From: Patescibacteria group bacterium
GTDB taxonomy: Bacteria > Patescibacteriota > Microgenomatia > UBA1406 > GWC2-37-13
Direction: 5' to 3'
Length of the DNA stretch: 64,000 bases
Assembly: GCA_026415975.1 (NCBI GenBank)
Contig: JAOAFZ010000001.1
Coordinates: 248,001 to 312,000 of the forward strand
The notes beneath the pieces are model-generated. The model saw nothing but the letters and a program-made list of their open reading frames with translations, ran no database searches and was not told where the DNA came from. Shown here one piece after another: positions 21,472 through 37,024 of the stretch. Positions within the stretch are counted from its first letter, which is position 1. Each line of letters opens with the position of its first letter. A program made the position numbers and the translations under genes.

Positions 21472-22635
21472 TCACCGGATACGTGCAAGGTAGGTCCGGA
21501 TAGAAGCTTGAATGTCTCCAATAACATCTCCTCCGAATTTTTCTACGAGAGCGTTAGATAGCACGTATGCCAGCATAGCCTCGGAGACGACCCCTCCGCG
21601 TGGCACAATACAGATGTCCGACCTTTCAACAGTTGCCTTTACCGGTTCTCGGGACAAGATATCTACCGTGTTCATCGGCTTGTACAGGGTAGAAATAGGC
21701 TTGTGGTACACACGGACAATAATCGGCATACCATTGGTAACGCCGCCTTCGATGCCGCCGGCACGATTGGTGTTCCGGTCAAATCCCCGGCTACCGTCCG
21801 GGATTATCTCGTCGTGTACTTCCGATCCTGGAAGTCCTGCGGAGAGTATCCCGTCGCCGATTTCCACGGCCTTCACCGACTGGATACTCATGAGCGCCTG
21901 GGCAATTCGACCGTCCAGCCTGCGGTCAAAGTGAACGTAGCTTCCCAAACCTACAGGTACCCCGACAGCCCAGGTCTCCACGATTCCACCCAACGTATCC
22001 ATACGCATGCGGGTATCTTTGATGAGGTCTCGCATCTGCTGCGCGAGTGCGGCGTCGATGCACCGTGTTTCGGGATCGGTAGCATAACTGGCCTTCACGT
22101 CATCGAACCCGTAGTCACGTCTCTTAAGTGAAAGATGTCCGATCCGGATGGTATGGCTGGCGATTTCGATACCGAGGGCGGCAAGAAACTGTTTGAACAG
22201 TGCTCCCGCGGCAACCCGTGCGGTGGTTTCCCGGGCGGACGCTCGTTCCAAGACATTCCGTACATCGTCGAACGCATATTTCTGTACACCGGCCAGATCA
22301 GTGTGTCCCGGGCGTGGCTTTGTAACCCGTGCAGCGGCGCGAACCTCATCCGGTTGTTCCGAAGCGCTCATTGTCGCTCCCCAGTTCTTATAGTCACGAT
22401 TTTCGATCAGGAGTGTCACCGGTGAACCGATCGTCTTCCCAAAGCGGATGCCGGAGAGTATACGGACCTCATCGGTCTCAATCAGCATGCGACCGCCGGC
22501 TCCGGAACCGGTCATGCGCTTCTTCATTTCGGCATGAATGCCATCGAGTGAAATCGGGATTCCGGCAGGGAGTCCCTCCACGGTAACGGTTAAGGCGGGT
22601 CCGTGCGATTCGCCGGAGGTCAGAAAACGGATCAT
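21472..22635 (-). CDS. aroC: Chorismate synthase
   Basis: 387 residues. It converts EPSP to chorismate with reduced FMN, the last shikimate step. Signatures: GESHGPALTVTVEGLPAGI at the N-terminus, RPGHTDLAGVQKY with the conserved His, RASARETTARVAAGA, and DGSRGFDRNTNRAGGIEGGVTNGMPI-type residues in the centre. Full length. It is the last gene of the nine-gene aro operon on the minus strand; its start overlaps the aroD stop by four bases. It faces the penicillin-binding protein gene tail to tail. Confidence 0.96.
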   Translation of the reverse strand: MIRFLTSGESHGPALTVTVEGLPAGIPISLDGIHAEMKKRMTGSGAGGRMLIETDEVRILSGIRFGKTIGSPVTLLIENRDYKNWGATMSASEQPDEVRAAARVTKPRPGHTDLAGVQKYAFDDVRNVLERASARETTARVAAGALFKQFLAALGIEIASHTIRIGHLSLKRRDYGFDDVKASYATDPETRCIDAALAQQMRDLIKDTRMRMDTLGGIVETWAVGVPVGLGSYVHFDRRLDGRIAQALMSIQSVKAVEIGDGILSAGLPGSEVHDEIIPDGSRGFDRNTNRAGGIEGGVTNGMPIIVRVYHKPISTLYKPMNTVDILSREPVKATVERSDICIVPRGGVVSEAMLAYVLSNALVEKFGGDVIGDIQASIRTYLARIR

Positions 22636-23348
22636 TCAGGTGCGGATAAATTGGTAAGGTTGTTTATTTCAGCAAACAGCCGGAGTAAATCCTGATAAGG
22701 TACCTGACCCGGAGCCGTAGCGCCCGTAGGAGCCGCTGCAAAAGTCAGATACGCGCCCAAATATGCTGCGAATATACGGGTTACTACCCCTGCAGGTCCC
22801 ATACCGATACATATCATATCACGAACACCCGCATTCGCCAGGAGCAAACGCAACAGGCGACGGCTATCTTCCTCGGAGCGAGCCATTGTTGCGATCTTCG
22901 CGATTGCGCCGGGGGTACGGTACATTTGATTGACGAGGTCTTGCAGCTCGGTACTATCGGGAGTGGTCTTGAAGTTATGGTACGAAAGTATCAAGCGGGT
23001 TCCTGCAGGTACCGTCGGTTCGACCGCCAGGAATGACCGTAACTCGATATCGACATGGGAGAATCCCCGCTCCAGTGCATGTTTGATTATTTCGATCCTT
23101 TCTGCTTCGAACCCATGAAACAATCCACCCTCTTCTACGGAGCGGCACGTGAAAATGAAGCGGGGATCCATCTGGTTAGCGAGGACATCTACCGCGTCTC
23201 GAGTCGGATGTTCAAGACTATCGAATCGTATTTCGATAAAGTCGAGATCCGGGGGAAGTGTCGCGATTGACTCCAGGAGTGCGTCCACCGCGGGCGCGGT
23301 GACCGGAACGCAGATACGTGGTTTCCCGATGATTTGCTGTTGTTGCAT
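22632..23348 (-). CDS. aroD: 3-dehydroquinate dehydratase, type I
   Basis: 238 residues. It dehydrates 3-dehydroquinate to 3-dehydroshikimate through a Schiff base. The type I pattern is seen: RICVPVTAP, LDFIEIRFDSL (the substrate-binding E-x-R), the catalytic His in RLILSYHNFKTTPD, and the Schiff-base Lys in GAIAKIATMARSEED. Type II enzymes are smaller and unrelated. It lies between aroE and aroC in the operon, two bases after the aroE stop. Confidence 0.94.
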   Translation of the reverse strand: MQQQQIIGKPRICVPVTAPAVDALLESIATLPPDLDFIEIRFDSLEHPTRDAVDVLANQMDPRFIFTCRSVEEGGLFHGFEAERIEIIKHALERGFSHVDIELRSFLAVEPTVPAGTRLILSYHNFKTTPDSTELQDLVNQMYRTPGAIAKIATMARSEEDSRRLLRLLLANAGVRDMICIGMGPAGVVTRIFAAYLGAYLTFAAAPTGATAPGQVPYQDLLRLFAEINNLTNLSAPE

Positions 23349-23350
23349 AG

Positions 23351-24166
23351 TTATGATGGTATGAGTACCGAACGCATAACATCAACCGGTGCCGGCATAC
23401 CGGTATAGAGGGTAAACTGTGCGGTGCCCTGATGAAGAAGCATGTCGGCTCCGTAGATAACCCGGGCTCCAGCCTGTGCCGCCTCGACCAGTAATCGGGT
23501 TTTCCGCGGTGTGTATACGGCATCGAAAACGATGTGGTGTGACCGCAGGTAATGGCGTGGGATCGGCGTCATATCTTTTTGGTCTCCCATGCCAAGCGGG
23601 GTACTGTTCAGCAGGATATCCATCTCCGCAACTGCGGCGATTTCGGTCAGCGGAAAAACCCGTGCTCCAAAGTCATCGGAAAATTCTTTCGCTTTTTCCG
23701 GATCTCGGACGAATACCGACAAGTGTCCTCCGGAAGCAGTTACCGCATATGCCATTGCCCGGGCGGCACCGCCGGCTCCGATCAAGGCTACCCGTTTCCC
23801 CTGCAAGTCTCCGTACGATAGCAGTGGCGTACGCGTACCCAGCCAGTCGGTATTATAGCCGGTCAGTATGCCGTTGTCCTGTACTACCGTATTTACCGCT
23901 CCGATCTTTTTGGCGACGGGATCTAGTGCATCCAGCAGGGGAAGGATGGCGATTTTATGCGGAATTGTAACCGTGAGACCCCGAAAACCAAGTGCACGCA
24001 CACCTGCCACCGCGGCAGCGAGCGAGTCGGTGGTAACACGTGCTACAGTAAAGATATAGTCTAACCCAAGTGCGCGGTACGCTGCGTTATGCATTGCCGG
24101 GGAGAGCGAATGCTCAACCGGATCGCCGATTATGATGCACTGTCTGGTTTTCGCACTGATTCTCAT
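23351..24166 (-). CDS. aroE: Shikimate dehydrogenase
   Basis: 271 residues. It reduces 3-dehydroshikimate to shikimate with NADPH. N-terminal substrate domain: IIGDPVEHSLSPAMHNAAY and LTVTIPHK with the catalytic Lys, then NTDWLGTRTPLLSYG with the catalytic Asp region. The Rossmann domain has VALIGAGGAARAMAYAV and INSTPLGM-like LLNSTPLGMGDQ. Its start overlaps the aroK stop by four bases. Confidence 0.95.
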   Translation of the reverse strand: MRISAKTRQCIIIGDPVEHSLSPAMHNAAYRALGLDYIFTVARVTTDSLAAAVAGVRALGFRGLTVTIPHKIAILPLLDALDPVAKKIGAVNTVVQDNGILTGYNTDWLGTRTPLLSYGDLQGKRVALIGAGGAARAMAYAVTASGGHLSVFVRDPEKAKEFSDDFGARVFPLTEIAAVAEMDILLNSTPLGMGDQKDMTPIPRHYLRSHHIVFDAVYTPRKTRLLVEAAQAGARVIYGADMLLHQGTAQFTLYTGMPAPVDVMRSVLIPS

Positions 24167-24669
24167 GAACGTGTCTGAAACTGGACAATTTGTTTAGCAA
24201 GCTCTTCCGGCGATGCATCTCCGACTGGAAGAATCCGATCCGCATACGCCTTATAGAGCGGATACCGCAGCGAGTATAACGCCTGAGCTGCACGCGCATC
24301 GGTAAATAGAGGACGCGGTGTCGGATCGGCGGCTACGCGATTACGCAGCGTTTCGAATGCAGCGTCAAGAAAGACAACCAGACTATCGCCCTCCCGTAAA
24401 TAGTCGATACAGATTTTATTCATCACCATACCGCCTCCCGTCGAGATAATCACGTTGTTCCTCTTTCGCAGTGAGCGTGCAATCTCAATTTCGGTTTCCC
24501 GTAACAGGAGTTCACCACCAAGTTGGAACACTTCGCTCATATCCGCACAGCCCAGATGATCCAATACCAGTGCATCCGTTTCGAGTACCTCCGACCCGCT
24601 ATGTTCGGCGAGCGCTCGGGCAACAGCTGTTTTTCCCGATCCCATAAACCCAATCAGGACGGTTTTCAT
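24163..24669 (-). CDS. aroK: Shikimate kinase
   Basis: 168 residues. It phosphorylates shikimate at O3 using ATP. Walker A is GFMGSGKTAVARAL at the N-terminus; the shikimate-binding Asp/Arg region is ETDALVLDHLG and ISTGGGMVM; the LID region is VAADPTPRPLFTD. The open frame reaches further upstream, but the ATG at 24669 gives MKTVLIGFMGSGK and overlaps the aroA stop as ATGA, the pattern seen throughout this operon. Confidence 0.94.
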   Translation of the reverse strand: MKTVLIGFMGSGKTAVARALAEHSGSEVLETDALVLDHLGCADMSEVFQLGGELLLRETEIEIARSLRKRNNVIISTGGGMVMNKICIDYLREGDSLVVFLDAAFETLRNRVAADPTPRPLFTDARAAQALYSLRYPLYKAYADRILPVGDASPEELAKQIVQFQTRS

Positions 24670-25937
24670 GATTCCTGTTCGGAACTGGTAATGCCGGCTT
24701 CTGCTAAAACCTCCCAAAAAGAGGGAAACGTTTTTGCCACCACATGCGGATCGGCAATACGCATTCCCGCGAGACGGGCACCGGCTACAGCAAATGACAT
24801 GGCCATCCGATGGTCGTTATATGTTTTAATGAGAGCCGGTTTCGGTTTTCCTCCGTGTATGATGAGTACATCCTCGGTAGCCTCAGTCCTGATTCCCATG
24901 GAACCTAGCTCATTCTGCAGTGCTGCAACCCGTTCGGTTTCTTTGAGTCGCAATGATCGCACTCCCGCGAGAACCGATGTTCCGGGGGCGAAAGCCGCAA
25001 GTACCGCCATCGTCTGTGCCTGATCCGGGCACGACTCGAGTGAAACTGTTACCGGGTGTAGGGTCCCTCCCGTTACCGTCACCGAGTCCGTACCGAACGT
25101 AACCGTAGCACCCAACTTACGGAGCAACTCCGGGAACCGGCGATCTGCCTGTTTCGAATCACCCTTCAGATTTTCAACAGTGATAGTGGAACCGGTTAGT
25201 GCGGCGAGTGCGAAAAAATACCCCGCACTGGAGTAATCGCCTTCGATAGTATATTCCCGGATCGTATACCGACTGGCTTCGGGAACATGGAACCGGTGAT
25301 ATGCTTCGGTGCTGACGTTTACCCCCCAGTCGCGCATCATATCCAGTGTCATTTCTGCGTACGGCCGGGAAATCAGCTCGCCTTCGACCTCGATAGTTAC
25401 TGCTCCTAGTGCCGGAGCCGCCATTAGGAGTGCCGAGAAAAACTGGCTACTGATTCCGCCCGTAACCCGACAGATTCCCCCATGTGCAGGCCTGGTAATC
25501 GTAATCGGGGCGCGATTGCCGGTAACGGCAATTTCTGCGCCAAGCTGTCGCAGACCTTCTACCAGCGGCATGAGCGGTCGTTCGGTAAGCCGGGGGCTTC
25601 CGGTAAGTCTAGTTGTACCGGTCAGGGTTGCCGAAAGTGCTGTCAGAAAGCGGATAGTAGTGCCGGAATCGCGGCAATACAGTTCCCGAAACTCCGCCCT
25701 TTTGCTGTTGCCTGCCTGTACAGTGATCTTCTTATCACTTTGTTGAATTTCATATCCAAGCTTACGCAGGCAGGTTATCATTGCTTCCGTATCGTCACTT
25801 GCCAGGGGATTATGGAGAGTAACCGGTTGCCCGGCAAGTGCAGCCATGCAAAGAGCCCGGTTTGTATAGCTCTTAGAGCCCGGGACTGCAACGCGGGAGG
25901 TTACAGGCTTCCCAATAGGAGTAATCGACCGTATCAT
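24666..25937 (-). CDS. aroA: 3-phosphoshikimate 1-carboxyvinyltransferase (EPSP synthase)
   Basis: 423 residues. It joins shikimate-3-phosphate and phosphoenolpyruvate. Signatures include VPGSKSYTNRAL with the catalytic Lys, CRDSGTTIRFLTALSA in the PEP-binding loop, and SSQFFSALLMAAP, EGDYSSAGYFFALAAL and LRLKETERVAALQNELGSMG, followed by YNDHRMAMSFAVAG. The PEP loop reads SGTTIR rather than the class I AGTAMR. It overlaps aroB by four bases. Confidence 0.95.
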   Translation of the reverse strand: MIRSITPIGKPVTSRVAVPGSKSYTNRALCMAALAGQPVTLHNPLASDDTEAMITCLRKLGYEIQQSDKKITVQAGNSKRAEFRELYCRDSGTTIRFLTALSATLTGTTRLTGSPRLTERPLMPLVEGLRQLGAEIAVTGNRAPITITRPAHGGICRVTGGISSQFFSALLMAAPALGAVTIEVEGELISRPYAEMTLDMMRDWGVNVSTEAYHRFHVPEASRYTIREYTIEGDYSSAGYFFALAALTGSTITVENLKGDSKQADRRFPELLRKLGATVTFGTDSVTVTGGTLHPVTVSLESCPDQAQTMAVLAAFAPGTSVLAGVRSLRLKETERVAALQNELGSMGIRTEATEDVLIIHGGKPKPALIKTYNDHRMAMSFAVAGARLAGMRIADPHVVAKTFPSFWEVLAEAGITSSEQES

Positions 25938-27016
25938 GTCAGTATCGCCGCAAGCGCCCGCCGCAGGTTCGCCTCGTCAACTTCGCAATCGGCAACTCCC
26001 TCACCAATCTTCCGGATGAGGGTCCACTTTACCATACCGAACTCGCTCTTTTTATCGTGGGAAAGGTTGGTGATCAGCGTGTCAGCGCTTACGTGGCCGA
26101 TCCGGGTGGGGAGTCCGGCATTCGCAATTGCAGACCGAATGGTTTGTACATCCACCGCTGATAAATACCCCGCAAGTTCCGAGAGATGGGCTTCCGCAAT
26201 CATCCCAATCGCAACAGCCTCTCCATGAAGGATGGGTGTCTGCGCTGTCAGCAGATACGCTTCAATCGCATGGCCGATGGTATGTCCGAAGTTTAAGAGC
26301 TTCCTCCGCCCGGTCTGCTCATGAATGTCGGAGATAACGATATCCGCCTTGATCTTGCATGACTCTTCAACGATGTGCATAAGTTCCTGCGGGGTAAATT
26401 CCCGTGGTTTTTTGAGGGTTACGAAACGGAAGTATTCGTCATTGTGAATTAATCCGTGTTTGATGATCTCTGCGAAACCGGAGAGAAACTCCCGATCGGG
26501 GAGTGTTTTGAGCGTACCAATATCCGCGATCACCATTTTTGGCTGTGCAAAGGTGCCGATTAAGTTTTTAATGCCCCCGAAATTGATTCCAGTTTTCCCG
26601 CCGATACTGGCATCTACCTGGGCAAGTACGGTAGTGGGAATATTGATCGCATCAATACCCCGCATGTAGGTGCTCGCAGCGAATCCGCCCAGGTCACCGA
26701 TCATACCGCCGCCGACATTTACCACACAACTTTTCCGGTCGAATCCGTGTGCAAGGAGCCGCTCCCAAATAAAGGTGACCCGCTCTATCGCCTTGGAATC
26801 CTCTCCGGCTGGAACCACGATACGAAGCGCATCTGCCGGAAAGAGCATGGGGTGCTGTGCTAATACCTCTGCTGCAACCGTCTCATCTGTTACAACTGCG
26901 ATCTTCGAGTACTGCTCCAGACGCAGAACATCGGTTAAGTGCTGTAAAAGACCATCACCGATGACGATCTGGTAGCTTTCGACTCTGCCGGGTATGGTAA
27001 CGGGTACTTTTATCAT
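25934..27016 (-). CDS. aroB: 3-dehydroquinate synthase
   Basis: 360 residues. An NAD- and zinc-dependent enzyme that cyclises DAHP to 3-dehydroquinate. Motifs: VNVGGGMIGDLGGFAASTYMRG, NIPTTVLAQVDASIGGKTGINF, FLSGFAEIIKHGLI and the metal-binding LNFGHTIGHAIE and HGEAVAIGM. Full length. It overlaps tyrA by four bases, consistent with translational coupling along the operon. Confidence 0.96.
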   Translation of the reverse strand: MIKVPVTIPGRVESYQIVIGDGLLQHLTDVLRLEQYSKIAVVTDETVAAEVLAQHPMLFPADALRIVVPAGEDSKAIERVTFIWERLLAHGFDRKSCVVNVGGGMIGDLGGFAASTYMRGIDAINIPTTVLAQVDASIGGKTGINFGGIKNLIGTFAQPKMVIADIGTLKTLPDREFLSGFAEIIKHGLIHNDEYFRFVTLKKPREFTPQELMHIVEESCKIKADIVISDIHEQTGRRKLLNFGHTIGHAIEAYLLTAQTPILHGEAVAIGMIAEAHLSELAGYLSAVDVQTIRSAIANAGLPTRIGHVSADTLITNLSHDKKSEFGMVKWTLIRKIGEGVADCEVDEANLRRALAAILT

Positions 27017-28149
27017 AGGCGAGCGCGTTCCGCGAAAAAAGCATCACGGTTCTTTTTCGCGTTTTCGAAAAAGGGCATGAGCGATTCGCGATCCAGTCCC
27101 TGCGCTTTCACGAAATTGATAAACTCCATTACGCTTACGGCAATGTTATCCGCATTCCGCGCGACAATCTCGGTGTGCATTCTCGGGCTTCCGCTTGCCA
27201 ATCGGGTAATAGACGCAAAGCCGCTCCCGGAGATTGCCAAAGCATCCCGTTTTTTTTCATAGCAGTATGCAAACAGGCACGTTGAGATCAGGAATACCAG
27301 GTGTGAAATAGCCGCCACCTCCCGGTCGTGCTCCTCTCCGGGCATCTCGGAAACCGGCGAACCAAGTGCCATTATCAGCTCGCGCACCCGGGAAACGGTC
27401 TCTGGCTTGTTCGCCTGGTGTGGACAGAGAATCCACGGTTTTTGGACAAAGACCATTGCTTGCGCATTCGCGAAACCGGTCTTCTCGGAACCGGCCATGG
27501 GATGGGTCGGGAGAAACTCGACACAATCCCTTGTAAGTGCCTGAAACTGTACGGTAAGTTCGGCTTTAATACTGCACGTATCAATCACGATCAGTTTCTT
27601 TCCCGTGCATCCCAGTGTCGCTTCCGCAAGTCGGGCTGCAACATCGGCGGCAGCATCGATTGGGGTGGCGATGATAACCAGTTCGACATCACGTGCAATC
27701 TCTTCGAGAGAGTCGTATTCCCGGTCCAGGTACCCATGGGTACTCCCGTAGCGGTTATCGGCGGAATCTCGTTTTACCGTCCCGATAAAAGGAGGGTTCT
27801 TTTTGGACTTCAGCGCTTTGATGATCGAACCTCCAATAAATCCAAGTCCGATCACACCGATCCGGGAGAAGGGTACCGAAGAAACCCGGTTAAAAATACG
27901 GGCTTTTTTATTGAGTTCAATAATTTTACCGTAGATGTCCTCGATATACTCCTTAAGAGCCGGATGCTTTGCCTGCATTTTCAGGCGGGAAATCAGCTCC
28001 TCTTCACGCTTCCGATCGGTAAGCGGGGCGCCGGCTTCGTCTTTGACCACAGCAACTTCATCGGTTATCCGAAACCGCCGGTCAAGTAACGAGAGAATCT
28101 CCGCGTCGATGGTATTCAGTTCGGAGCGCAGTTCATCGAGACTTCTCAT
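27013..28149 (-). CDS. tyrA: Bifunctional chorismate mutase / prephenate dehydrogenase
   Basis: 378 residues. Residues about 1-85 form an AroQ chorismate mutase (LDELRSELNTIDAEILSLLDRRF with active-site Arg, ending near EYIEDIYGKIIELNKKAR). The rest is a prephenate dehydrogenase: Rossmann motif GVIGLGFIGGSIIKAL, then VIDTCSIKAELT, FLPTHPMAGSEKTGF and VAAISHLVFLIST. The layout matches E. coli TyrA. Product is 4-hydroxyphenylpyruvate for tyrosine. The only chorismate mutase seen in the window is this domain, so it likely supplies prephenate to PheA too. Confidence 0.93.
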   Translation of the reverse strand: MRSLDELRSELNTIDAEILSLLDRRFRITDEVAVVKDEAGAPLTDRKREEELISRLKMQAKHPALKEYIEDIYGKIIELNKKARIFNRVSSVPFSRIGVIGLGFIGGSIIKALKSKKNPPFIGTVKRDSADNRYGSTHGYLDREYDSLEEIARDVELVIIATPIDAAADVAARLAEATLGCTGKKLIVIDTCSIKAELTVQFQALTRDCVEFLPTHPMAGSEKTGFANAQAMVFVQKPWILCPHQANKPETVSRVRELIMALGSPVSEMPGEEHDREVAAISHLVFLISTCLFAYCYEKKRDALAISGSGFASITRLASGSPRMHTEIVARNADNIAVSVMEFINFVKAQGLDRESLMPFFENAKKNRDAFFAERARL

Positions 28150-29000
28150 GCGGTTTGGGGAATTACTCCGCCCGGATAAAAACCGAGAACTTTCAACGAA
28201 TTTGTGCTCTTTTTGAACTTTTCAAGAATGGATTGCACATCCGCGAGCGAGGAGCCGTTCCAGTCAAAGTCTACATAAAAAATATACTCGAATGGCTTCC
28301 CGGCAATCGGGCGAGACTCTATTTTGTCTAGGTTCATCTTCCCTTCTGCGAGTGCCTGGAGTGCGGCAAAGAGGCTCCCAGGTTTGTGCGACACCGTGAA
28401 AATAATCGAGCATTTATTGGGGGCTTCCGCAGCCTCCGGCTCTTTTGCTATGACCAGGAATCGAGTGTAGTTGAACTCGTTATCCTGAACGTTTTCCGCA
28501 AGGATATCCAGTCCGTAGATTTCGGCAGTTTCCCGGCTAGCAATTGCTGCTAAAAATGGGTCTTTCTGATCTGCCACAAACTTTGCCGCACCTGCAGTGT
28601 CGGAGTGGATCTCGGATTTAATCCAGGGGTGGTTGGCAAGGAACCGGTCGCATTGCTCAAGCGCTTTGTAGTGCGAAACCACTTTGCTGATGTGCTCTAG
28701 GCGTGTAGCCGGTTGCATGCTGGACTTCGTGCCCAGTAGATGCAGATCAATCTTCAGGTACTGCTCACCCACGACCGCGACATCGTGCTGGTGGAGAAGG
28801 TCGTAGTTATCGTACACCGAGCCGGCAAGGCTATTTTCTACCGGTATCATACCATAATCAAAGTTACCGTTTTCGATACCAGTGAAGATGGCACGAAACG
28901 AAGAGGCGCCAACAAATTCAAACCCAGTTCCGGCAAACTGCCTACGGGCGGCAAGGTACGAGTACGATCCGGGAATACCCAGATAAGCGACGATTTTCAT
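28146..29000 (-). CDS. pheA: Prephenate dehydratase with ACT domain
   Basis: 284 residues. It converts prephenate to phenylpyruvate for phenylalanine. Catalytic part: AYLGIPGSYSYLAARRQF, YGMIPVENSLAGSVYDNYDLL and NYTRFLVIAKEP, the last carrying the catalytic Thr-Arg. A C-terminal ACT domain (IIFTVSHKPGSLFAALQALAE; IESRPIAGKPFEYIFYVDFD) suggests feedback inhibition by phenylalanine, as in known family members. No chorismate mutase domain is present. It overlaps tyrA by four bases and lies 37 bases after the DAHP synthase gene. Confidence 0.94.
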   Translation of the reverse strand: MKIVAYLGIPGSYSYLAARRQFAGTGFEFVGASSFRAIFTGIENGNFDYGMIPVENSLAGSVYDNYDLLHQHDVAVVGEQYLKIDLHLLGTKSSMQPATRLEHISKVVSHYKALEQCDRFLANHPWIKSEIHSDTAGAAKFVADQKDPFLAAIASRETAEIYGLDILAENVQDNEFNYTRFLVIAKEPEAAEAPNKCSIIFTVSHKPGSLFAALQALAEGKMNLDKIESRPIAGKPFEYIFYVDFDWNGSSLADVQSILEKFKKSTNSLKVLGFYPGGVIPQTA

Positions 29001-29037: not shown

Positions 29038-29982
29038 TCAAATGATATCTTCCGGAGTGGCGAGATCGCGCACCGCAGCTAATTCGGTAACCAGTGTCTG
29101 TAGCTCTGCAGTAGTGATATGCTGATCGGTATCCGTTTCTGATGTGCCGGTTTCGATGAGAATTCCGTCGTACAGGAATGATCCATCATCCATTTTTAGC
29201 TGGAGCGCGTCCAACACAGCGTATACAATCTGTTTGCGCATTTTCGGGCCGTGGGCGTGACTCGGATCGAAGAACAGTTTTGCCCCCGTGGCTATTTTGG
29301 TTCGTTTTGCAATATTATGTACCGGTGCGTTCCGATAGTCGCCTTTATCTGGGACGTCCACTCCCCGGTGTATCAGCACGATATCTCCTTCAAGCTTCCC
29401 GGCATACGCAGTAAGTCCCGCCCAAGTTTTCTCCATCGTGGTTATCCCTGAAAAATCCTCAGAGTTTGCTATATGAACATGTTCGCCGACCCATTTCCCG
29501 TTCTTTATTCCCAAGTGCCAGCCATACGTGCGGCACAGTTCTGCGGTCTGCAAGATGGGCCAGCCGAGCTGGTTCACTGCTGGGTTCCACGGCATAAGCT
29601 TTTTCGCCGGAATGCGATTGCCATACTGAGGAAGCTGGAGCAGGGGACTCATTACTTCCGTGGCGACGAGCATACCGGTCTTCCGGAATACCTCTTCGGC
29701 AATCTCCACACTGGGTGGTACGACAAGATCAACAATGCAACCACCAGCGGTGAGTGATTTTAGATTGTGCATGTACACTTCGAAATCAATGCCCATTCCT
29801 TTTCCCGATGGATCCAGTTCTGTGCGTGACTTGATGCCGACAATGCGGGTTCCTGCTATAGCTTTCTGGGTTACTCCTTCGCGATTGGTAACCGTCATAG
29901 CGGCGATCTCGTAAATCTCGTGCAGATTCTTCCGGTCTATCGAACAGGGTCCTGCAACAACCGCTAGTTTGTTCTGTTTCAT
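29038..29982 (-). CDS. aroF: 3-deoxy-7-phosphoheptulonate (DAHP) synthase, class I
   Basis: 314 residues. It condenses phosphoenolpyruvate and erythrose-4-phosphate, the entry step of the shikimate pathway. Signatures: VVAGPCSIDRKN, GIKSRTELDPSGKG (phosphate-binding Lys-x-Arg), GCIVDLVVPPSVEIAEEVF, VATEVMSPLLQLPQYGNRI, GIKNGKWVG and the metal-binding LFFDPSHAHGPKMRKQIV. No separate ACT or chorismate mutase domain. It is the first structural gene of the operon, behind an aromatic-leader attenuator, so flux into the pathway would be set by that switch. The subclass and symbol are approximate. Confidence 0.88.
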   Translation of the reverse strand: MKQNKLAVVAGPCSIDRKNLHEIYEIAAMTVTNREGVTQKAIAGTRIVGIKSRTELDPSGKGMGIDFEVYMHNLKSLTAGGCIVDLVVPPSVEIAEEVFRKTGMLVATEVMSPLLQLPQYGNRIPAKKLMPWNPAVNQLGWPILQTAELCRTYGWHLGIKNGKWVGEHVHIANSEDFSGITTMEKTWAGLTAYAGKLEGDIVLIHRGVDVPDKGDYRNAPVHNIAKRTKIATGAKLFFDPSHAHGPKMRKQIVYAVLDALQLKMDDGSFLYDGILIETGTSETDTDQHITTAELQTLVTELAAVRDLATPEDII

Positions 29983-30012
29983 AGGATAGTTGAATAATAA
30001 TTTATTAAGGCA

Positions 30013-30042
30013 TAAAAAAAACCGCCCTTTCCCGGGGCGGTT
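30013..30042 (-). terminator. Attenuator terminator of the aro operon with competing antiterminator
   Basis: On the minus strand ACCGCCC (30041-30035) pairs with GGGCGGT (30027-30021) across a seven-base loop, followed by eight U residues (30021-30014). An identical GGGCGGT stands upstream at 30087-30081, inside codons 20-22 of the leader peptide, and can pair with the same ACCGCCC to form an antiterminator. A ribosome at the leader stop codon would cover the upstream copy and let the terminator form. A small CCGC/GCGG hairpin overlapping the upstream copy may serve as the pause structure. Confidence 0.88.
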
Positions 30043-30063
30043 GCTTTTTCTCTTAGTGCTTTT

Positions 30064-30144
30064 TCAGCAATAAGCTCTCGACCGCCCAGAGCGGGTAAAG
30101 TAAAAGAAAAAGTAAAACCAGCTAACATAAAGCATACGACGCAT
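30064..30144 (-). CDS. aro operon leader peptide rich in Trp, Phe and Tyr
   Basis: 26 codons plus stop. Codons 9-16 read Trp-Phe-Tyr-Phe-Phe-Phe-Tyr-Phe (30120-30097), covering all three end products of the operon downstream; residues 6-17 are YVSWFYFFFYFT. The ATG begins six bases after the -10 box TACAAT, so the mRNA should begin at the AUG itself. It precedes a rho-independent terminator and overlaps the antiterminator segment. This is the arrangement of amino-acid leader peptides that sense charged tRNA by ribosome stalling, as in E. coli pheA and trp. The peptide has no other expected function. Confidence 0.88.
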   Translation of the reverse strand: MRRMLYVSWFYFFFYFTRSGRSRAYC

Positions 30145-30150
30145 AGGAAC

Positions 30151-30179
30151 ATTGTAACTGAGTGAAATAGAATCGTCAA
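30151..30179 (-). promoter_or_regulatory. Strong promoter of the aro operon
   Basis: On the minus strand TTGACG (30179-30174) and TACAAT (30156-30151) are spaced by 17 bases. The expected start, seven bases after the -10 box, is the A of the leader-peptide ATG at 30144. Confidence 0.85.
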
Positions 30180-30291
30180 CCGGAAGTGATCTGCAGTACT
30201 ATTGTGCTGGCCGGATACCACGATTATCTTGTTGCCGCGGCGTTCGATGATCCCAAAAAGACTGATCGGGGGTACCGGCTCTTCACTCGAC

Positions 30292-30321
30292 TTGCCATAG
30301 TGGCACAGGAAGGTGTATAAT
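30292..30321 (+). promoter_or_regulatory. Promoter of the trp operon
   Basis: TTGCCA at 30292-30297 and TATAAT at 30316-30321 are 18 bases apart. The predicted start near 30325-30328 coincides with the 5' strand of a GGTAAC/GTTACC helix (30326-30331 with 30431-30436) that could close the T-box stem I region. Confidence 0.7.
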
Positions 30322-30324
30322 CCG

Positions 30325-30583
30325 TGGTAACAGCATGGTACCAAAAGTACCGAAGCCGGGAGCATGGGCCCGGCAAGCTGGCCGGTGAAACGGTCTCTTC
30401 GGGGAATAGTAGCCGGTCCGGGAGCAGCCCGTTACCGCCGCAGGCCGGAATCGCCTGTTCAAAGCAGCGCCGGTCACGAGCCGTCCGCGGAAACGCGCAC
30501 GGGAAGAGCAGGTGGCACCACGAGAAACCTCGTCCTTGCTCATCATACGCACATCGTATGATGGGTTGTGACGAGGTTTTTTT
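30325..30583 (+). promoter_or_regulatory. T-box riboswitch (tRNA-sensing leader) of the trp operon
   Basis: The T-box core AGGTGGCACCACG lies at 30510-30522. Around it the standard antiterminator can form: GAGCA (30506-30510) with TGCTC (30537-30541) flanking the bulge, and ACGAG (30520-30524) with CTCGT (30529-30533) across loop AAAC. The bulge UGGC would pair with a tRNA 3' end GCCA, matching a G73 discriminator as in tRNA-Trp. Upstream are a GGTAAC/GTTACC closing helix and a stable hairpin near 30486-30503. Trp specificity is inferred from the operon; a UGG specifier codon was not located in its usual place on the 3' side of stem I, so stem I is atypical or misfolded by me. Confidence 0.75.
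30526..30583 (+). terminator. Rho-independent terminator of the trp T-box
   Basis: AACCTCGTC (30526-30534) pairs with GACGAGGTT (30570-30578), with a second nine-pair hairpin CATCATACG/CGTATGATG (30541-30549 with 30555-30563) inside, and a run of T at 30577-30583. Its 5' arm overlaps the antiterminator strand CTCGT, so the two folds exclude each other. Confidence 0.85.
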
Positions 30584-30591
30584 ATGCCACT

Positions 30592-31950
30592 ATGCTCAGG
30601 AAATTCCGGTTCGGCCAGAAGCCGACCTATGTAAAATTTGCGGAAGACATCGACCTGTTCGGACTGTTCGAAAGGATCAATGCGGTGTCGGATACCTGCT
30701 TTATCCTCGAGTCGCTCGGGGCGGAGAGTCGGTTGTCGCGATACTCGCTGATCGGTTTCGATCCGCAGCATAACATAGTCGGCGAGCCGAGTGCACTGTT
30801 TCTTGATGGAACACGCTTCGCGGTGCCGAATCCCTACTATGCCCTCCGGGAACTCGTTCCCACCGATATCCTGGCCCGTAATTATGCGGGCGGGTTGATA
30901 GGGTATCTGGGGTACGACGCCATGAACTTCATGGAGCCGGCGCTGCAGGTGCGGCGGTATCCCGGCTTCCCGCCGTTTCGGTTCGGCGTGTACACCGATG
31001 GGCTAGTACTCGATAAGATGACCGGCGAACTGTTCTATTTCCATTACGGCACCAATCGTCAGGCGAAGCTGGAATCCGTGCTCGCCGCTCCTGCGCCGAA
31101 ATACAATCTGACCATTACCCTCGGTTCTGACTCGCTTACTCGCGAGCAGTACGCTCGGACGGTCGAGCAGACAAAAGAGGAAATTCGAGCCGGAAATACC
31201 TTCCAGTGTCAGGTTGGATTCCGGAAAGAGTTTACCCGGTCCGGAAACCCGCTTCCGTTGTATCGCAGATTACGTGAAGTGAACCCGTCTCCGTTTATGT
31301 ACTTTGTGCGGTTCGGAGAGCAGTATATCATCGGCGCGAGTCCCGAATTGCTATTTAAGCTTTCGGATGGCGTAATGGAAACGTACCCGCTTGCGGGAAC
31401 GGTGCGTCGCGGAGCAACCGAAGAGGAAGATACGAAACTGGCGCGGCAACTGCTGAACGACCCCAAGGAAATCGCCGAACATAACATGCTTGTGGATCTA
31501 CACCGCAACGATATCGGCCGTGTGGCGGAGTTCGGTTCCGTAAAAGTGAAAAGTCTGATGGATATCCGGAAATTCAGCCATGTCCAGCACATTTCCAGTG
31601 AGATTTCCGGGCATATCAGGGCCGGTGAGGACATGTTCAGTGCGCTGGCGGCCAACTTTCCCGCCGGCACGCTGACTGGAGCACCAAAAATCGAGTCTAT
31701 GAAGATTATCGACCGGATGGAACCGACTCCCCGCGGACCGTACGGCGGCGCGCTGGGACATTTCGGCTTCAATGGGAACTGTACCTTCGCGATTCCCATC
31801 CGGACGCTGTTTATCGACGGGGAACAAGGGTATACCCAGGCGAGCGGCGGAGTTGTGTATGATTCCACAGCAGAGGGGGAGTATGATGAAGTACAGCGCA
31901 AGATGAGGGCGATAGTTGAGGTATTATCCAGTTTCACCGCGAAGCCATGA
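30592..31950 (+). CDS. trpE: Anthranilate synthase component I
   Basis: About 452 residues. With TrpG it makes anthranilate from chorismate and glutamine. The chorismate-binding C-terminal domain is clear: SPFMYFVRFGEQYIIGASPELL, YPLAGTVRRGATEEED, HNMLVDLHRNDIGRV, FSHVQHISSEISGHI, PAGTLTGAPKIESMKII and GPYGGALGHFGFNG. The ATG at 30592 comes just after the T-box terminator's U run; an upstream GTG lies inside the terminator and is rejected. It overlaps trpG by four bases. Confidence 0.95.
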   Translation: MLRKFRFGQKPTYVKFAEDIDLFGLFERINAVSDTCFILESLGAESRLSRYSLIGFDPQHNIVGEPSALFLDGTRFAVPNPYYALRELVPTDILARNYAGGLIGYLGYDAMNFMEPALQVRRYPGFPPFRFGVYTDGLVLDKMTGELFYFHYGTNRQAKLESVLAAPAPKYNLTITLGSDSLTREQYARTVEQTKEEIRAGNTFQCQVGFRKEFTRSGNPLPLYRRLREVNPSPFMYFVRFGEQYIIGASPELLFKLSDGVMETYPLAGTVRRGATEEEDTKLARQLLNDPKEIAEHNMLVDLHRNDIGRVAEFGSVKVKSLMDIRKFSHVQHISSEISGHIRAGEDMFSALAANFPAGTLTGAPKIESMKIIDRMEPTPRGPYGGALGHFGFNGNCTFAIPIRTLFIDGEQGYTQASGGVVYDSTAEGEYDEVQRKMRAIVEVLSSFTAKP

Positions 31951-32663
31951 AGATTCTTCTGATCGACAACTACGACTCCTTTACCTATAACCTGTATCAG
32001 ATCATGGGCGAGCTGCTGATGGAGGATGGCAGCGCATTCAGACTAGATGTCGAACGCAACGACTCGATTACCGCCAGCCAGATTAAACGGAAGAAGTACG
32101 ACCGCATCGTGATTTCCCCGGGCCCGGGCAGCCCCGACGACCGTGCGTACTTCGGCGTGTGTGCCGAAGTACTCACCGATATCGGCCGTAAGACCCCGGT
32201 GTTTGGGGTATGTTTGGGGATGCAGGGAATGGCCCATTACTTCGGCGGAAAGGTCGTCCGTGCCAGTCAGCCGATGCACGGTAAGACTAGTACGATCGTC
32301 CACGACCGATCGGGAGTATTTTCGGGGTTACCGCAGGGAATCGCGGTGATGCGCTATCATTCGCTCGTCGTCGATCCGGATACCTTGCCGGACTGTCTTG
32401 CGGTAACGGCAACCGTCGCCGCGCCCACTCCGGTTACCGAAGTAGAAACCGCAATTCGGGAGATTCCCTACGAACAGAAGAATCTGGAAGGCGTAAATCC
32501 GGCTATGCTCCTGCGGACCGCGAAGTCCGGTACGGCGGAAATCATGGGCTTGCGCCATACCTCGTTTCCGGTAGAAGGAATCCAGTTCCATCCCGAGTCG
32601 TTTGCTACCGAAGGCGGAAAACTGATGATCCGTAATTTCTTATTTTCTCCCCATGCCACATAA
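31947..32663 (+). CDS. trpG: Anthranilate synthase component II (glutamine amidotransferase)
   Basis: 238 residues. It releases ammonia from glutamine for TrpE. Class I amidotransferase marks: LLIDNYDSFTYNL, ISPGPGSPDD, the nucleophilic Cys in FGVCLGMQGMAHYFGG, and the His-Glu pair in EGIQFHPESF. Common TrpG proteins are about 190 residues; this one has roughly 40 extra residues between YHSLVVDPDTLPD and the His motif (including EQKNLEGVNPAML). It overlaps trpE by four bases and trpD by eleven. Confidence 0.94.
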   Translation: MKILLIDNYDSFTYNLYQIMGELLMEDGSAFRLDVERNDSITASQIKRKKYDRIVISPGPGSPDDRAYFGVCAEVLTDIGRKTPVFGVCLGMQGMAHYFGGKVVRASQPMHGKTSTIVHDRSGVFSGLPQGIAVMRYHSLVVDPDTLPDCLAVTATVAAPTPVTEVETAIREIPYEQKNLEGVNPAMLLRTAKSGTAEIMGLRHTSFPVEGIQFHPESFATEGGKLMIRNFLFSPHAT

Positions 32664-33669
32664 CCACACGATTCACAAACTGCTGAATGGTACCGATCTA
32701 ACCCGCGACGAGGCCGCAGGGCTGCTGGGATGTATGATGGACGGCGTGCTTTCCGAGGTGCAGATCGCCAGCGTCCTCACGCTGATCAAACGGAAGTCCC
32801 CGACCGTCGACGAGCTGGAGGGGTATATCACAGCGATGCGTTCCCGGATGATACGGGTAAGTGCTCCGGAAAACGCGATCGACACCTGCGGCACCGGAGG
32901 AGATGGTCACCATACCTTTAATATCTCGACCGTCAGCGCACTGGTGGTCGCTGCCTGCGGGGTGCCGGTTGCAAAACACGGTAACCGGAGCGCAACCAGC
33001 AAGTGCGGGAGCGCGGATGTTCTGGAGGCGCTTGGTGTGAACATTCTGCTTGAACCGAATCAGGCCACCCGCGTGCTATCAAATGCCGGGATTGTATTCC
33101 TATTTGCTCCTACATACCATCCAGCGCTCAAGCCGATTGCGGTGGTACGCAAACAGCTGCCGTTTCCCACGGTTTTCAACTTTCTCGGACCGTTTTGTAA
33201 CCCGGCCGGCACACGCCACCAGGTGATCGGGGTACCGGATGCCAGAATGGCTACACTTCTGGCAAAGGTAGCCACCCGGCTAGACTATACCCACCTGGCA
33301 ATCCTGACGGGTCCGGACGGGCTGGACGAGGCCGGTCTGCATGCCCCTGCACGCGTTATCACGGTTGCCGGAAAGCGGGTTATGGAAGAAACAATTGATC
33401 CGGTGGCACTCGGGCTGGCTGCAGCTCCGATTTCCGCATTTACCGGCGGTGATGCTGCACAAAATGCGGCAATCGCAAGTGCTATCCTCGACGGAGAACG
33501 CGGTCCACGGCGCGATGTGGTGCTTTTGAATGCAGCCCTTGCGCTGAACGTCGCCGGTGTAGCTTCCGATCTTCCTGCGGGACTGACTATGGCGAAAAAC
33601 GCACTCGAGAGCGGTGCTGCCCGCACCACCCTGCACCAGCTTATTCACCATTCAACTTTAGTGATATGA
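32653..33669 (+). CDS. trpD: Anthranilate phosphoribosyltransferase
   Basis: 338 residues. It transfers the phosphoribosyl group of PRPP to anthranilate. Signatures: AIDTCGTGGDGHHTFNIST, AKHGNRSATSKCGSADVLEALG, and HPALKPIAVVRKQLPFPTVFNFLGP. Full length. It is not fused to TrpG. It overlaps trpC by four bases. Confidence 0.95.
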   Translation: MPHNHTIHKLLNGTDLTRDEAAGLLGCMMDGVLSEVQIASVLTLIKRKSPTVDELEGYITAMRSRMIRVSAPENAIDTCGTGGDGHHTFNISTVSALVVAACGVPVAKHGNRSATSKCGSADVLEALGVNILLEPNQATRVLSNAGIVFLFAPTYHPALKPIAVVRKQLPFPTVFNFLGPFCNPAGTRHQVIGVPDARMATLLAKVATRLDYTHLAILTGPDGLDEAGLHAPARVITVAGKRVMEETIDPVALGLAAAPISAFTGGDAAQNAAIASAILDGERGPRRDVVLLNAALALNVAGVASDLPAGLTMAKNALESGAARTTLHQLIHHSTLVI

Positions 33670-34439
33670 GTATTCTCGATACCATCCTTGCAACTACCCG
33701 AGAGTCGGTTGCCCGCAGAAAGGCGCAGACGCCCGCGAGCAAACTTATCGGTGCCATCGGCACTGCTGGGATCAAGCATTCCTTTTCCGATACGCTCCGT
33801 TCTGCATCGAGGCATCCGGCACTGATCGCCGAGATCAAACACCGGTCGCCATCGGCGGGGGCGTTCGTATCGCGGATTCCGCTCGAAGTGCGTATTAATG
33901 CCTATGAATCGGGTGGTGCATCCGCAATTTCGTATGTTTCGGAGCACGAACACTTCGGCGGTTCGCTGGACGAGCTCCGGAAGGTCGTGCAGCACGCGTC
34001 GGTACCTGTTTTGCAGAAAGACTTCGTGGTAGATACCTACCAAATTCTGGAAGCAGCGGCACACGGAGTAAGTGCGCTTCTCCTGATTGCTCGAATTCTG
34101 GAGCCTGCGGTATTACGAACCTTTATCGTAACTGCACAGGCATATGGTATTGAACCGGTGGTTGAGGTATACGACGAAGCAGACCTGGAAAAAGCGCTTG
34201 CTACTTCCCCCGGAGTTATCGGGGTGAACGCCAGGAACTTGGACACCTTTACCGTGAATATTGCGGCTGCCGGAGCGCTTCTCCGGCAGATTCCGAACGA
34301 TATCTTGCGTATCGGATTCTCCGGGGTAAACGACCGTTCCCATGTGGAGCAGTATGCTGCCGCCGGTGCATCGGCAGTGCTGGTAGGAAGCGCGCTTATG
34401 CAGTCCGATGATCCTGCTCCGTTATTAAAAAAACTCTAG
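33666..34439 (+). CDS. trpC: Indole-3-glycerol phosphate synthase
   Basis: 257 residues, a TIM barrel that closes the indole ring. Visible: ALIAEIKHRSPSAG with the catalytic Lys, LQKDFVVDTYQILEAAAHGVSALLLIA, GVNARNLDTFTV, IGFSGVNDRSHVEQYAAAGASAVLVGSALM. It is monofunctional: the length equals one barrel and no phosphoribosylanthranilate isomerase (TrpF) is fused. Confidence 0.94.
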   Translation: MSILDTILATTRESVARRKAQTPASKLIGAIGTAGIKHSFSDTLRSASRHPALIAEIKHRSPSAGAFVSRIPLEVRINAYESGGASAISYVSEHEHFGGSLDELRKVVQHASVPVLQKDFVVDTYQILEAAAHGVSALLLIARILEPAVLRTFIVTAQAYGIEPVVEVYDEADLEKALATSPGVIGVNARNLDTFTVNIAAAGALLRQIPNDILRIGFSGVNDRSHVEQYAAAGASAVLVGSALMQSDDPAPLLKKL

Positions 34440-34446
34440 AACCACC

Positions 34447-34908
34447 ATGAAGATCTACCGTCCTGATCGTGCGAAACTCGGTCGCTTTTTGATCCCGCCG
34501 CTTATCTTTACTTTGCTGGCAAGCGGCTTTATCGTGGCCGTGATGGGTTTGCATATTGGTGCCCTGCTTACGGCACTTCTTATCGGCGGGGTAGTACTGA
34601 CACCGTTTCTGGTGTTTATTCTGCCAACTTTTCTGCGGGAACAGGTGATTATCGAGGACTTTACCTCGCGGATCTACCTGGTAGTGCTGGTTTTTCGTAT
34701 TAAGCGTGTGCTTACAATCGCAGATATCGATACGATTCGGGAACGCTACCGCGCCGACAGGAAAAGCGGACCGCGGGAGCTGGTGATCACACAGGGAAAA
34801 AAGACTGTCATGATAAGCGAAAGTAAGTACCGGTATGAAGATATCCTTGATATGGTTCAAACCTATAAACAGAAAAATCCCCGGATTCGGGTTTCGTTAC
34901 TTGATTGA
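34447..34908 (+). CDS. Two-helix membrane protein with PH-like C-terminus, inside the trp operon
   Basis: 153 residues. Two adjacent membrane helices (about residues 14-33 and 37-60) are followed by a soluble part with VIIEDFTSRIYLVVLVFRIKRVLTIADIDTIRERY and a strand-rich tail, resembling bacterial PH-like (YdbT/DUF304-type) domains. It is not a TIM barrel, so it cannot be a conventional TrpF, even though this slot between trpC and trpB is where trpF is often placed. It begins seven bases after trpC and ends inside the region before trpB. Role unknown; membrane docking of the pathway or transport control are only guesses. Confidence 0.6.
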   Translation: MKIYRPDRAKLGRFLIPPLIFTLLASGFIVAVMGLHIGALLTALLIGGVVLTPFLVFILPTFLREQVIIEDFTSRIYLVVLVFRIKRVLTIADIDTIRERYRADRKSGPRELVITQGKKTVMISESKYRYEDILDMVQTYKQKNPRIRVSLLD

Positions 34909-34925
34909 TTATTTTATTAACCAAT

Positions 34926-36221
34926 ATGCCCAGTACCCAAACCAAATCCGGAAAACCGGACCTTTTCTTTGATTACCACACACCATTCGACGCCGATGAG
35001 ACTGGCCACTTCGGGTCATACGGCGGGCGGTATGCACCGGAAATGCTGATACCGTCGCTGGAGGCTCTTGATGACGCGTACTCCGAAGCGGTACGGGATC
35101 CGCAGTTTCAGAATGAGTTTTTCTACCACCTAGCTACATATGCCGGCCGGCCAACACCGCTTTACTACGCGGAGAATCTTACCAAAAAGCTCGGCGGCGG
35201 GAAGATTTACCTGAAAAATGAGGGACTCAACCTTACGGGCGCGCACAAGATCACTCACTGCATCGGGCAGGCGCTGATCGCCAGGCGCATGGGAAAAAAG
35301 CGGCTAATCGCCGATACCGGTGCCGGCCAGCATGGGAAAGCCGTGGCAACGATCGCCGCTAAATTCGGTTTCGAGTGTACGGTTTACATGGGAGCTACCG
35401 ACGTGGCTCGCCAGCGTCCCAACGTGTTCTGGATGGAGCGGCTGGGTGCGAAGGTAGTGCCGGTCGAGTTTGGCAACAAGACGCTTAAAGATGCTGTAAA
35501 TGCGGCCATGAAAGACTGGATCACCAATCCGGATGCGCACTTTCTGCTGGGCTCGACGGTAGGGCCGCATCCGTACCCGAGCATGAACCGCGATTTCCAG
35601 TCGGTGGTAGGCATGGAAGTACGCGACCAGATTTCTAAAGCCGAAGGGAAGCTTCCTGATTATCTGATCGCCTGTGTCGGCGGCGGGAGTAATGCTATGG
35701 GTCTCTTTTACCGCTTTCTGAACGACGAAACGGTACAAATGATCGGCGTGGAAGCAGGCGGGCGGGGAACCGGCAAACTCGGCGACCATGCCGCTCGCTT
35801 CGCCGGCGGGAGGGTAGGAGTGGCCGAGGGATACAAGTCGGTCTTCTTGCAGGACGAGAGCGGGAACATTGCGTCCTCGCATAGCGTATCTGCGGGACTG
35901 GATTATCCCGGCATAGGTCCGCAGCTGGCGTACCTTAAGGAGAAAGGGCGAATCGAGGTGGTAGCCGTTACTGACGCAGCAGTTCTGGAGGCATTCAAAC
36001 TGGTGGTTTCTACGGAAGGGATTATCCCTGCCCTCGAGTCTACCCATGCTATCGCGCATGCGGTAGCCCTGGCCCCGAAACTGGCTAAAGACCAGGTGAT
36101 CGTGGTAAACGTCTCCGGAAGCGGAGATAAAGATATCTTTATCATCGCCGAAGCCCTCGGCGATGATAAGTGGAGAACGTTCCTCCGGAAAACGGTTGCC
36201 AGTTATGACGCACAGAAATGA
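34926..36221 (+). CDS. trpB: Tryptophan synthase beta chain, with altered active-site residues
   Basis: 431 residues. A PLP enzyme that joins indole and serine. The PLP Lys is K108 in TGAHK; the phosphate loop GGGSNAMG and the YMGATDVARQRPNVFWMERLGA segment are present. Three normally fixed positions differ: the strand before the Lys reads EGLNLTGAHK instead of EDLNHTGAHK, the catalytic Glu in AETGAGQHG is Asp (D130 in ADTGAGQHG), and SGRGDKD is SGSGDKD. In the Salmonella enzyme the Glu is E109, a catalytic residue. The ATG at 34926 is chosen over an upstream start overlapping the previous gene. It overlaps trpA by four bases. Confidence 0.93.
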   Translation: MPSTQTKSGKPDLFFDYHTPFDADETGHFGSYGGRYAPEMLIPSLEALDDAYSEAVRDPQFQNEFFYHLATYAGRPTPLYYAENLTKKLGGGKIYLKNEGLNLTGAHKITHCIGQALIARRMGKKRLIADTGAGQHGKAVATIAAKFGFECTVYMGATDVARQRPNVFWMERLGAKVVPVEFGNKTLKDAVNAAMKDWITNPDAHFLLGSTVGPHPYPSMNRDFQSVVGMEVRDQISKAEGKLPDYLIACVGGGSNAMGLFYRFLNDETVQMIGVEAGGRGTGKLGDHAARFAGGRVGVAEGYKSVFLQDESGNIASSHSVSAGLDYPGIGPQLAYLKEKGRIEVVAVTDAAVLEAFKLVVSTEGIIPALESTHAIAHAVALAPKLAKDQVIVVNVSGSGDKDIFIIAEALGDDKWRTFLRKTVASYDAQK

Positions 36222-37024
36222 CAAATAGCATATCCAACAAACTCGATACTGCCCTTGCGGGGCTGAAGAAGTCGAAAAAGACTGGCCTGATGACTCACCT
36301 TGTGCTGGGCTATCCCTCGCGCGAACGGGCGATCCGTCTGGCAGCGGAGTTGGAAGAGGGCGGGGCAACGATTCTTGAGCTGCAGATTCCCTTTTCCGAT
36401 CCTATTGCCGATGGCCCAACAATCATGAAGGCCTGCGATGTATCCCTGAAATCCGGGACGACGGTGCATACCGCGCTCGAAGATATCGCTGCCATCTCCA
36501 GAGCTGCCACGATTCCGGTTGTCGTGATGTCTTATTACAACCCGATTTTTGCCTTTGGGGCAGAGGCATTCTGCCAGAAAATAGCTGCGATGGGTGTTAC
36601 CGGCCTCATCGTTCCCGATCTTCCACCGGAAGAAGAAGCCAACGAAGGCTTCCTGGCGGCTTGCAACCGGCATAGTCTGCATGCAATCCGGGTGGTATCA
36701 CCGGCCAGTACTTATCAGCGCCTCCGGCTAAACGCCGATATTGCCAGCGGCTTTGTTTACACTACCAGCAGATTTGGGGTAACCGGTGCGAAAGCCGATC
36801 TGGATCCGCGGCTTATCGGGTATCTGGACCGGCTGCGTACAATTTTCCGCGTTCCGATCGCGGTCGGATTCGGTATCTCGAAGCCGGAGCATGTGCGGGC
36901 AATTCACGGACATGCGGATGTGGTGATTGTAGGGAGTGCGATCATTGATTTTCTGCACCCCTCAGGAGATAATAGCACTAACCGGAACATCCCGGCCTTT
37001 ATCCATTCCCTTCTTTCCCGATGA
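36218..37024 (+). CDS. trpA: Tryptophan synthase alpha chain
   Basis: 268 residues, a TIM barrel that splits indole-3-glycerol phosphate into indole and glyceraldehyde-3-phosphate. The catalytic Glu and Asp are in ILELQIPFSDPIADGPTI; the MSYYNPIFAFG and FVYTTSRFGVTGAK segments match the family's Tyr and loop-6 positions; the phosphate site is IAVGFGISKPEHV and VIVGSAIIDFL. It overlaps both trpB and the next gene by four bases, so the isoaspartyl peptidase gene is in the same transcript. Confidence 0.95.
   Translation: MTNSISNKLDTALAGLKKSKKTGLMTHLVLGYPSRERAIRLAAELEEGGATILELQIPFSDPIADGPTIMKACDVSLKSGTTVHTALEDIAAISRAATIPVVVMSYYNPIFAFGAEAFCQKIAAMGVTGLIVPDLPPEEEANEGFLAACNRHSLHAIRVVSPASTYQRLRLNADIASGFVYTTSRFGVTGAKADLDPRLIGYLDRLRTIFRVPIAVGFGISKPEHVRAIHGHADVVIVGSAIIDFLHPSGDNSTNRNIPAFIHSLLSR

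Follow-up and report, generated by a model that had tools for sequence, protein, structure and literature searches.

The window, a 64,000-nucleotide stretch of a genome of 1.31 Mb (96.6% complete) whose nearest named relatives are Candidatus Roizmanbacteria, carries on its minus strand a row of nine genes that mostly overlap or nearly touch. All nine encode aromatic-pathway enzymes, which bears out the original prediction of a nine-gene shikimate operon at this site:

29038..29982 (−), DAHP synthase, operon gene 1 (PF00793, 31 bits, above cut-off)
28146..29000 (−), prephenate dehydratase (pheA)
27013..28149 (−), chorismate mutase-prephenate dehydrogenase (tyrA)
25934..27016 (−), 3-dehydroquinate synthase (aroB)
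24666..25937 (−), EPSP synthase (aroA)
24163..24717 (−), shikimate kinase (aroK), start codon uncertain
23351..24166 (−), shikimate dehydrogenase (aroE)
22632..23348 (−), type I 3-dehydroquinate dehydratase (aroD)
21472..22635 (−), chorismate synthase (aroC)

The DAHP synthase is divergent; when a profile of the relatives' enzymes was compared with solved structures, only DAHP synthases were matched, and these weakly. On the opposite strand lies a divergent trp operon (30568–37935 (+)) with trpE, trpG, trpD, trpC, a 153-aa ORF, trpB and trpA, followed by an Asparaginase_2 family gene. The 153-aa ORF (34447–34908) has no Pfam match and sits where trpF might be expected. Ahead of trpE, at 30256–30540 (+), there is a T-box-like element (RF00230, 32 bits, E 3e-5; cut-off 93), which carries AGGTGGCACCACG and a terminator, and a TATAAT promoter at 30292–30321 would start inside the T-box-matched region. 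We found no paper on T-boxes in CPR in our literature search.

The leader region of the operon

Upstream of the DAHP synthase gene we located the following elements, all on the minus strand:

30174..30179 (−), −35 hexamer TTGACG; relatives mostly have a TTGACA-like sequence
30151..30156 (−), −10 hexamer TACAAT, 6 nt 5' of the leader ATG; predicted leaderless start
30064..30144 (−), leader peptide ORF of 26 aa, MRRMLYVSWFYFFFYFTRSGRSRAYC followed by stop; aromatic run kept in 17 loci
30097..30120 (−), regulatory codons Trp-Phe-Tyr-Phe-Phe-Phe-Tyr-Phe, from the leader comparison across loci
30081..30095 (−), segment 2 (CCCG....GGGCGGT), 5' strand of the antiterminator within the leader ORF, from the antiterminator fold
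30031..30042 (−), segment 3 (AACCGCCCCGGG), common to antiterminator and terminator, from pairing tests and fold
30014..30042 (−), intrinsic terminator with stem AACCGCCC/GGGCGGTT and T run, from sequence and fold

These elements agree with what had been described from the sequence of the window, and we can confirm that the promoter (TTGACG and TACAAT with a 17 nt spacer), the 26-residue leader with its WFYFFFYF run, the repeat and the terminator are real. GGGCGGT occurs twice, within the leader (30087–30081) and as the terminator 3' arm (30027–30021), and the ACCGCCC at 30041–30035 can pair with either copy, as had been claimed. The T run (30021–30014) directly follows the terminator stem, and the DAHP synthase gene starts 31 bases past it. 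The hallmarks of an attenuator are therefore present here: a small leader ORF in which codons for the amino acids made by the operon cluster, and an intrinsic terminator before the first gene. A 128-aa ORF in another frame (29979–30365) covers the same region, but it was rejected as the coding frame because it is the aromatic frame that relatives conserve.

Only GTTCCT separates TACAAT from the ATG (30144–30142), so that the A of the ATG is base 7 past the −10 hexamer, and there is no Shine-Dalgarno motif upstream of the window's leader. A −10 box about 6–8 nt upstream of the AUG without a Shine-Dalgarno motif is the arrangement of a leaderless mRNA. From this promoter spacing, with a −10 motif that was identified as a consensus match only, the 5' end of the leader transcript would lie at the start codon.

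Conservation and base pairing in relatives

A search with the DAHP synthase found the gene in 21 family genomes, the window's own included, and in 12 of these, from seven genera, it is preceded by the same layout: a −10 box near an ATG, an ORF for a peptide of 20–35 residues that contains an aromatic run (FYFYFF, for example) and ends in a stop codon, and a terminator between this ORF and the DAHP synthase. In the family genomes that have no leader, the gene mostly sits behind another gene. Five more leaders were found outside the family, two in Levyibacteriota and the others in MAGs labelled Elusimicrobia, Peregrinibacteria and deltaproteobacterium, so that the design stands upstream of the orthologous gene in 16 loci besides the window (17 in all). 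The gene just downstream is also an aromatic-pathway gene in 9 of the 10 relatives tested. A near-consensus promoter with the same spacing, its −10-like hexamer close to the ATG, precedes nearly all of the relatives' leaders; L059 has no obvious −10 box at the usual place. The Phe and Tyr codons stay in frame despite changes between TTT and TTC and between TAT and TAC, and the distance from stop codon to T run is 35–48 nt in most leaders, while little of the peptide beyond the aromatic run is conserved from one lineage to another. One leader ORF (L029) has its aromatic run interrupted by an in-frame insertion that carries a strong hairpin (CGTCCACAGGACGATCGTCCTTTGGACG). On the DAHP synthase tree the leader is clustered yet found in several places (8 changes versus 14.4 when shuffled), a pattern that fits a single origin followed by losses, repeated gain, or transfer equally well.

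The original prediction had also proposed that one switch senses all three aromatic tRNAs. The conservation of Phe and Tyr codons agrees with this for two of them; Trp codons, however, are found in only 6 of the 17 leaders and the trp operon is preceded by a T-box-like leader of its own, which suggests that the sensing of Trp contributes little, if anything, to the switch.

In close Roizmanbacteria relatives the RNA has four segments: CCCAC (segment 1) ahead of the aromatic codons, GGCGGCGUGGG (segment 2) where the ORF ends, CCCAC-CCGCC (segment 3) and GGCGGG followed by the U run (segment 4); the segment 1 pairing of the window does not take the CCCAC/GUGGG form of these relatives. The arms co-vary between species, as in L059 (GGCGGGCGGUAUC/GAUACCACCCGCC) and in L073 (GGGAGGC/GCCUCCC), and the 2:3 antiterminator and 3:4 terminator are mutually exclusive. 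Because a MAFFT alignment mixed the registers of the variable arms, we replaced column counts by a swap-and-permutation test. Over the 17 loci, the 2:3 duplex has a mean energy of −18.9 kcal/mol with a leader's own segments versus −15.5 kcal/mol with species-swapped ones (permutation p 5e-5), and for the 1:2 duplex the corresponding values are −12.8 and −10.1 kcal/mol (p 1.5e-4). The check that had been named in advance, a comparison of related genomes, came out positive for the aromatic codons, the paired arms with compensatory change, the U run and the position of the promoter.

Folding was calculated at equilibrium, without transcription kinetics and with an assumed ribosome footprint of 13 nt. 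When the ribosome is placed at the stop codon, the predicted terminator probability is 0.93–1.0 in 16 of the 17 leaders and 0.75 in the remaining one; when it stalls on an aromatic codon, either the first or a middle one, the mean drops to 0.22, compared with 0.90 for dinucleotide shuffles, the lowest of 100 replicate shuffle sets giving 0.79. The switch in the window is one of the weaker in this set, its stalled terminator probability going down only to 0.50, and for an outlying member (L067) no switch was predicted in this test. Before the terminator arm is made, the window's antiterminator has a predicted energy of −25.5 kcal/mol (z −2.9), and none of 200 shuffles was as stable. The protector pairing of segments 1 and 2 is significant over the set and weak in the window; most leaders are predicted to terminate by default, the exceptions being L028, L030, L032 and L059, where the antiterminator is predicted to be favoured in the ribosome-free full-length RNA.

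Predicted leaderless starts and a threonine leader in the host genome

The promoter arrangement of the leader recurs throughout the host genome (G000). A near-consensus −10 hexamer lies 5–9 nt before the ATG of 163 of 510 first-in-unit genes (32%), where about 20 would be expected. The counts peak sharply at 6 nt, where 64 genes stand against a background of about 4 per position, and Shine-Dalgarno cores form no peak. The 16S end keeps the usual anti-Shine-Dalgarno sequence. Gene starts were assigned mechanically, by taking the first ATG in each long ORF, and these counts may deviate from the true leaderless share. Matches to the −35 element are not commoner at leaderless-type −10 boxes (35 of 164) than at others (36 of 136), and the genome-wide signature is therefore that of the −10 peak alone. 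A second family genome (G045) has the same leaderless signature and a genome from another family (G180) has both signals. By these signals a leaderless leader would be the local norm, and a leaderless start looks like the default in the host genome and not like a special feature of the aromatic switch.

We scanned 1.30 of the 1.31 Mb on both strands for small ORFs that are enriched in a single class of amino acid and followed by a terminator. The site in the window ranks first, being the only ORF with eight of eight aromatic residues and a terminator; the next-best aromatic ORF has six of eight and no adjacent −10 box, and none with a clear −10 box next to it approaches the window's site. The scan also found a Thr-rich leader, likewise predicted to be leaderless (MNSQFTAITTTTP, followed by stop), with a terminator (L170:17285-17326 (+), G000:C4:177285), its −10 box 7 nt before its ATG, directly before a gene identified as thrS (TIGR00418, 629 bits). 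In many Microgenomatia relatives, too, thrS stands behind a Thr leader (MKKEIKFTTTTIS and MKNVSLVLTTTTTR are examples), and 14 of the 15 leaders tested have a terminator and act as switches in the folding test, with a mean stalled terminator probability of 0.05 versus 0.88 for shuffles. In two of these loci (L202 and L203) the ATG of the Thr leader seems to share bases with the CCA at the 3' end of a tRNA-Val gene (CCATG), in which case the leader message would come from the tRNA transcript; in two others (L204 and L215) tRNA-Asp and tRNA-Val lie just upstream of the leader.

Taking both leaders and the −10 peak together, we lean towards the view that in Microgenomatia such as Roizmanbacteria much of the genome is translated leaderless with little or no use of Shine-Dalgarno sequences, and that leaderless attenuation is a standing form of amino acid control there (aromatic amino acids at DAHP synthase, threonine at thrS), neither of which would have been described before.

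The proposed switch, alternatives and known systems

The leader region is very probably a ribosome-mediated transcription attenuator of the trp/phe type, predicted to be leaderless, in front of the nine-gene operon, and the comparative evidence thereby supports the original prediction that a leaderless aromatic attenuator governs the entire operon. In the mechanism that we propose, RNA polymerase would start on the leader AUG or within a base or two of it, and the ribosome would consequently load straight onto the 5' end without a Shine-Dalgarno sequence. When charged tRNA-Phe and tRNA-Tyr (and tRNA-Trp, for the single Trp codon) are plentiful, the ribosome would reach the stop codon and cover segment 2 (GGGCGGU), leaving segment 3 (ACCGCCC) to pair with segment 4 (GGGCGGU); the terminator would thus form and release an RNA of about 131 nt. 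A ribosome stalled on the aromatic codons would instead leave segment 2 free to pair with segment 3 first, and the nine-gene operon would be transcribed.

The same sequence might be read as a plain intergenic terminator behind a small ORF that is rich in Phe and Tyr by chance, the operon being constitutive or served by another promoter. Strong terminators alone are common, G-rich arms could match through composition and Phe codons arise easily in T-rich DNA. However, the leader is conserved across lineages with its Phe and Tyr codons kept in frame through synonymous changes, the swap test, the shuffle control and the uniqueness of the site in the genome all oppose such a reading, and the stretch from promoter to terminator holds no further gene for which the terminator could be of use. 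We regard a plain terminator as highly improbable, and the independent Thr/thrS regulon also makes a chance origin of the aromatic leader very unlikely. That the attenuator is translated from a message with a 5' untranslated region, starting further upstream and using a weak ribosome-binding site, is unlikely: the window's −10 box is a consensus match and the 5' end is read from sequence, which would allow for such a start, but a near-consensus promoter stands at the same spacing before nearly all of the relatives' leaders and Shine-Dalgarno motifs are neither present before the window leader nor enriched genome-wide.

A T-box or small-molecule riboswitch in place of a translated leader could be suspected from the T-box-like element before trpE. 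This element is on the opposite strand and is the only T-box match in the relaxed Rfam search, which gave none on the strand of the shikimate leader; moreover, only about 131 nt are transcribed before termination, and the conserved features are ORF codons that fit the pathway, just as the Thr version before thrS fits threonine. A riboswitch is therefore extremely improbable. It is also very unlikely, though it would add to attenuation and not replace it, that the leader has a function in trans, through its peptide or through the short terminated RNA, in the manner of peTrpL/rnTrpL of Sinorhizobium meliloti; the terminated RNA would resemble rnTrpL in being a small leaderless mRNA (PMC7298713), whereas the lineages share little of the peptide sequence apart from the aromatic run.

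Attenuation by a leader peptide, as proposed here for the aromatic operon, has well-known precedents. At gathering thresholds Rfam has no match within the window, and in a relaxed search the best match on the leader strand is RF01859 Phe_leader (27.4 bits, E 0.027), below its gathering threshold of 55. This family represents the E. coli pheA leader, which is Phe-rich and follows the same switch logic, and the weak match falls at the same place. The E. coli leader uses a Shine-Dalgarno sequence; it controls pheA only, whereas the window leader precedes nine genes. Leaderless leader-peptide attenuators as such, which the original prediction implied to be new, are already known. The S. meliloti trpL transcript begins at the ATG of the leader ORF and has a terminator/antiterminator switch, although in this alphaproteobacterium it is Trp that is sensed, for trpE(G) (PMC7298713). 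Several Streptomyces leaders also begin at the AUG, and S. lividans, with trpL, leuL, ilvL and thrL, has several leaderless leader genes in one genome, thrL preceding thrS as the Thr leader does here; these are Actinobacteria, and no aromatic leader before DAHP synthase is in the list (PMC8079986). The closest parallel in content is aroR of Corynebacterium glutamicum, a Phe-Tyr-Phe attenuator of a DAHP synthase operon (Neshat et al. 2014, as cited in PMC11802643 and PMC4046766). According to these accounts, aroR-aroF likewise has a short leader peptide with stalling at Phe/Tyr codons, but it belongs to a different phylum and operon, only Phe limitation matters and the run has three residues, compared with eight in the window, where a nine-gene shikimate/Phe/Tyr set follows. 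The mechanism is thus a known one, with an aromatic version at DAHP synthase in C. glutamicum, and, as the original prediction supposed, it is apparently unreported in Patescibacteria. A partial literature search, which is no proof of novelty, found no paper on attenuation and leader peptides in Patescibacteria and none describing leaderless translation as a CPR feature.

CPR bacteria are mostly uncultured and streamlined, they often lack amino acid synthesis and little is known of their gene regulation. The findings presented here give this group a concrete, conserved regulatory switch, predicted to act on a whole shikimate operon. Such a switch would imply coupling of transcription and translation in these cells. 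Together with the genome-wide signature, it suggests that leaderless initiation is among this lineage's normal modes.
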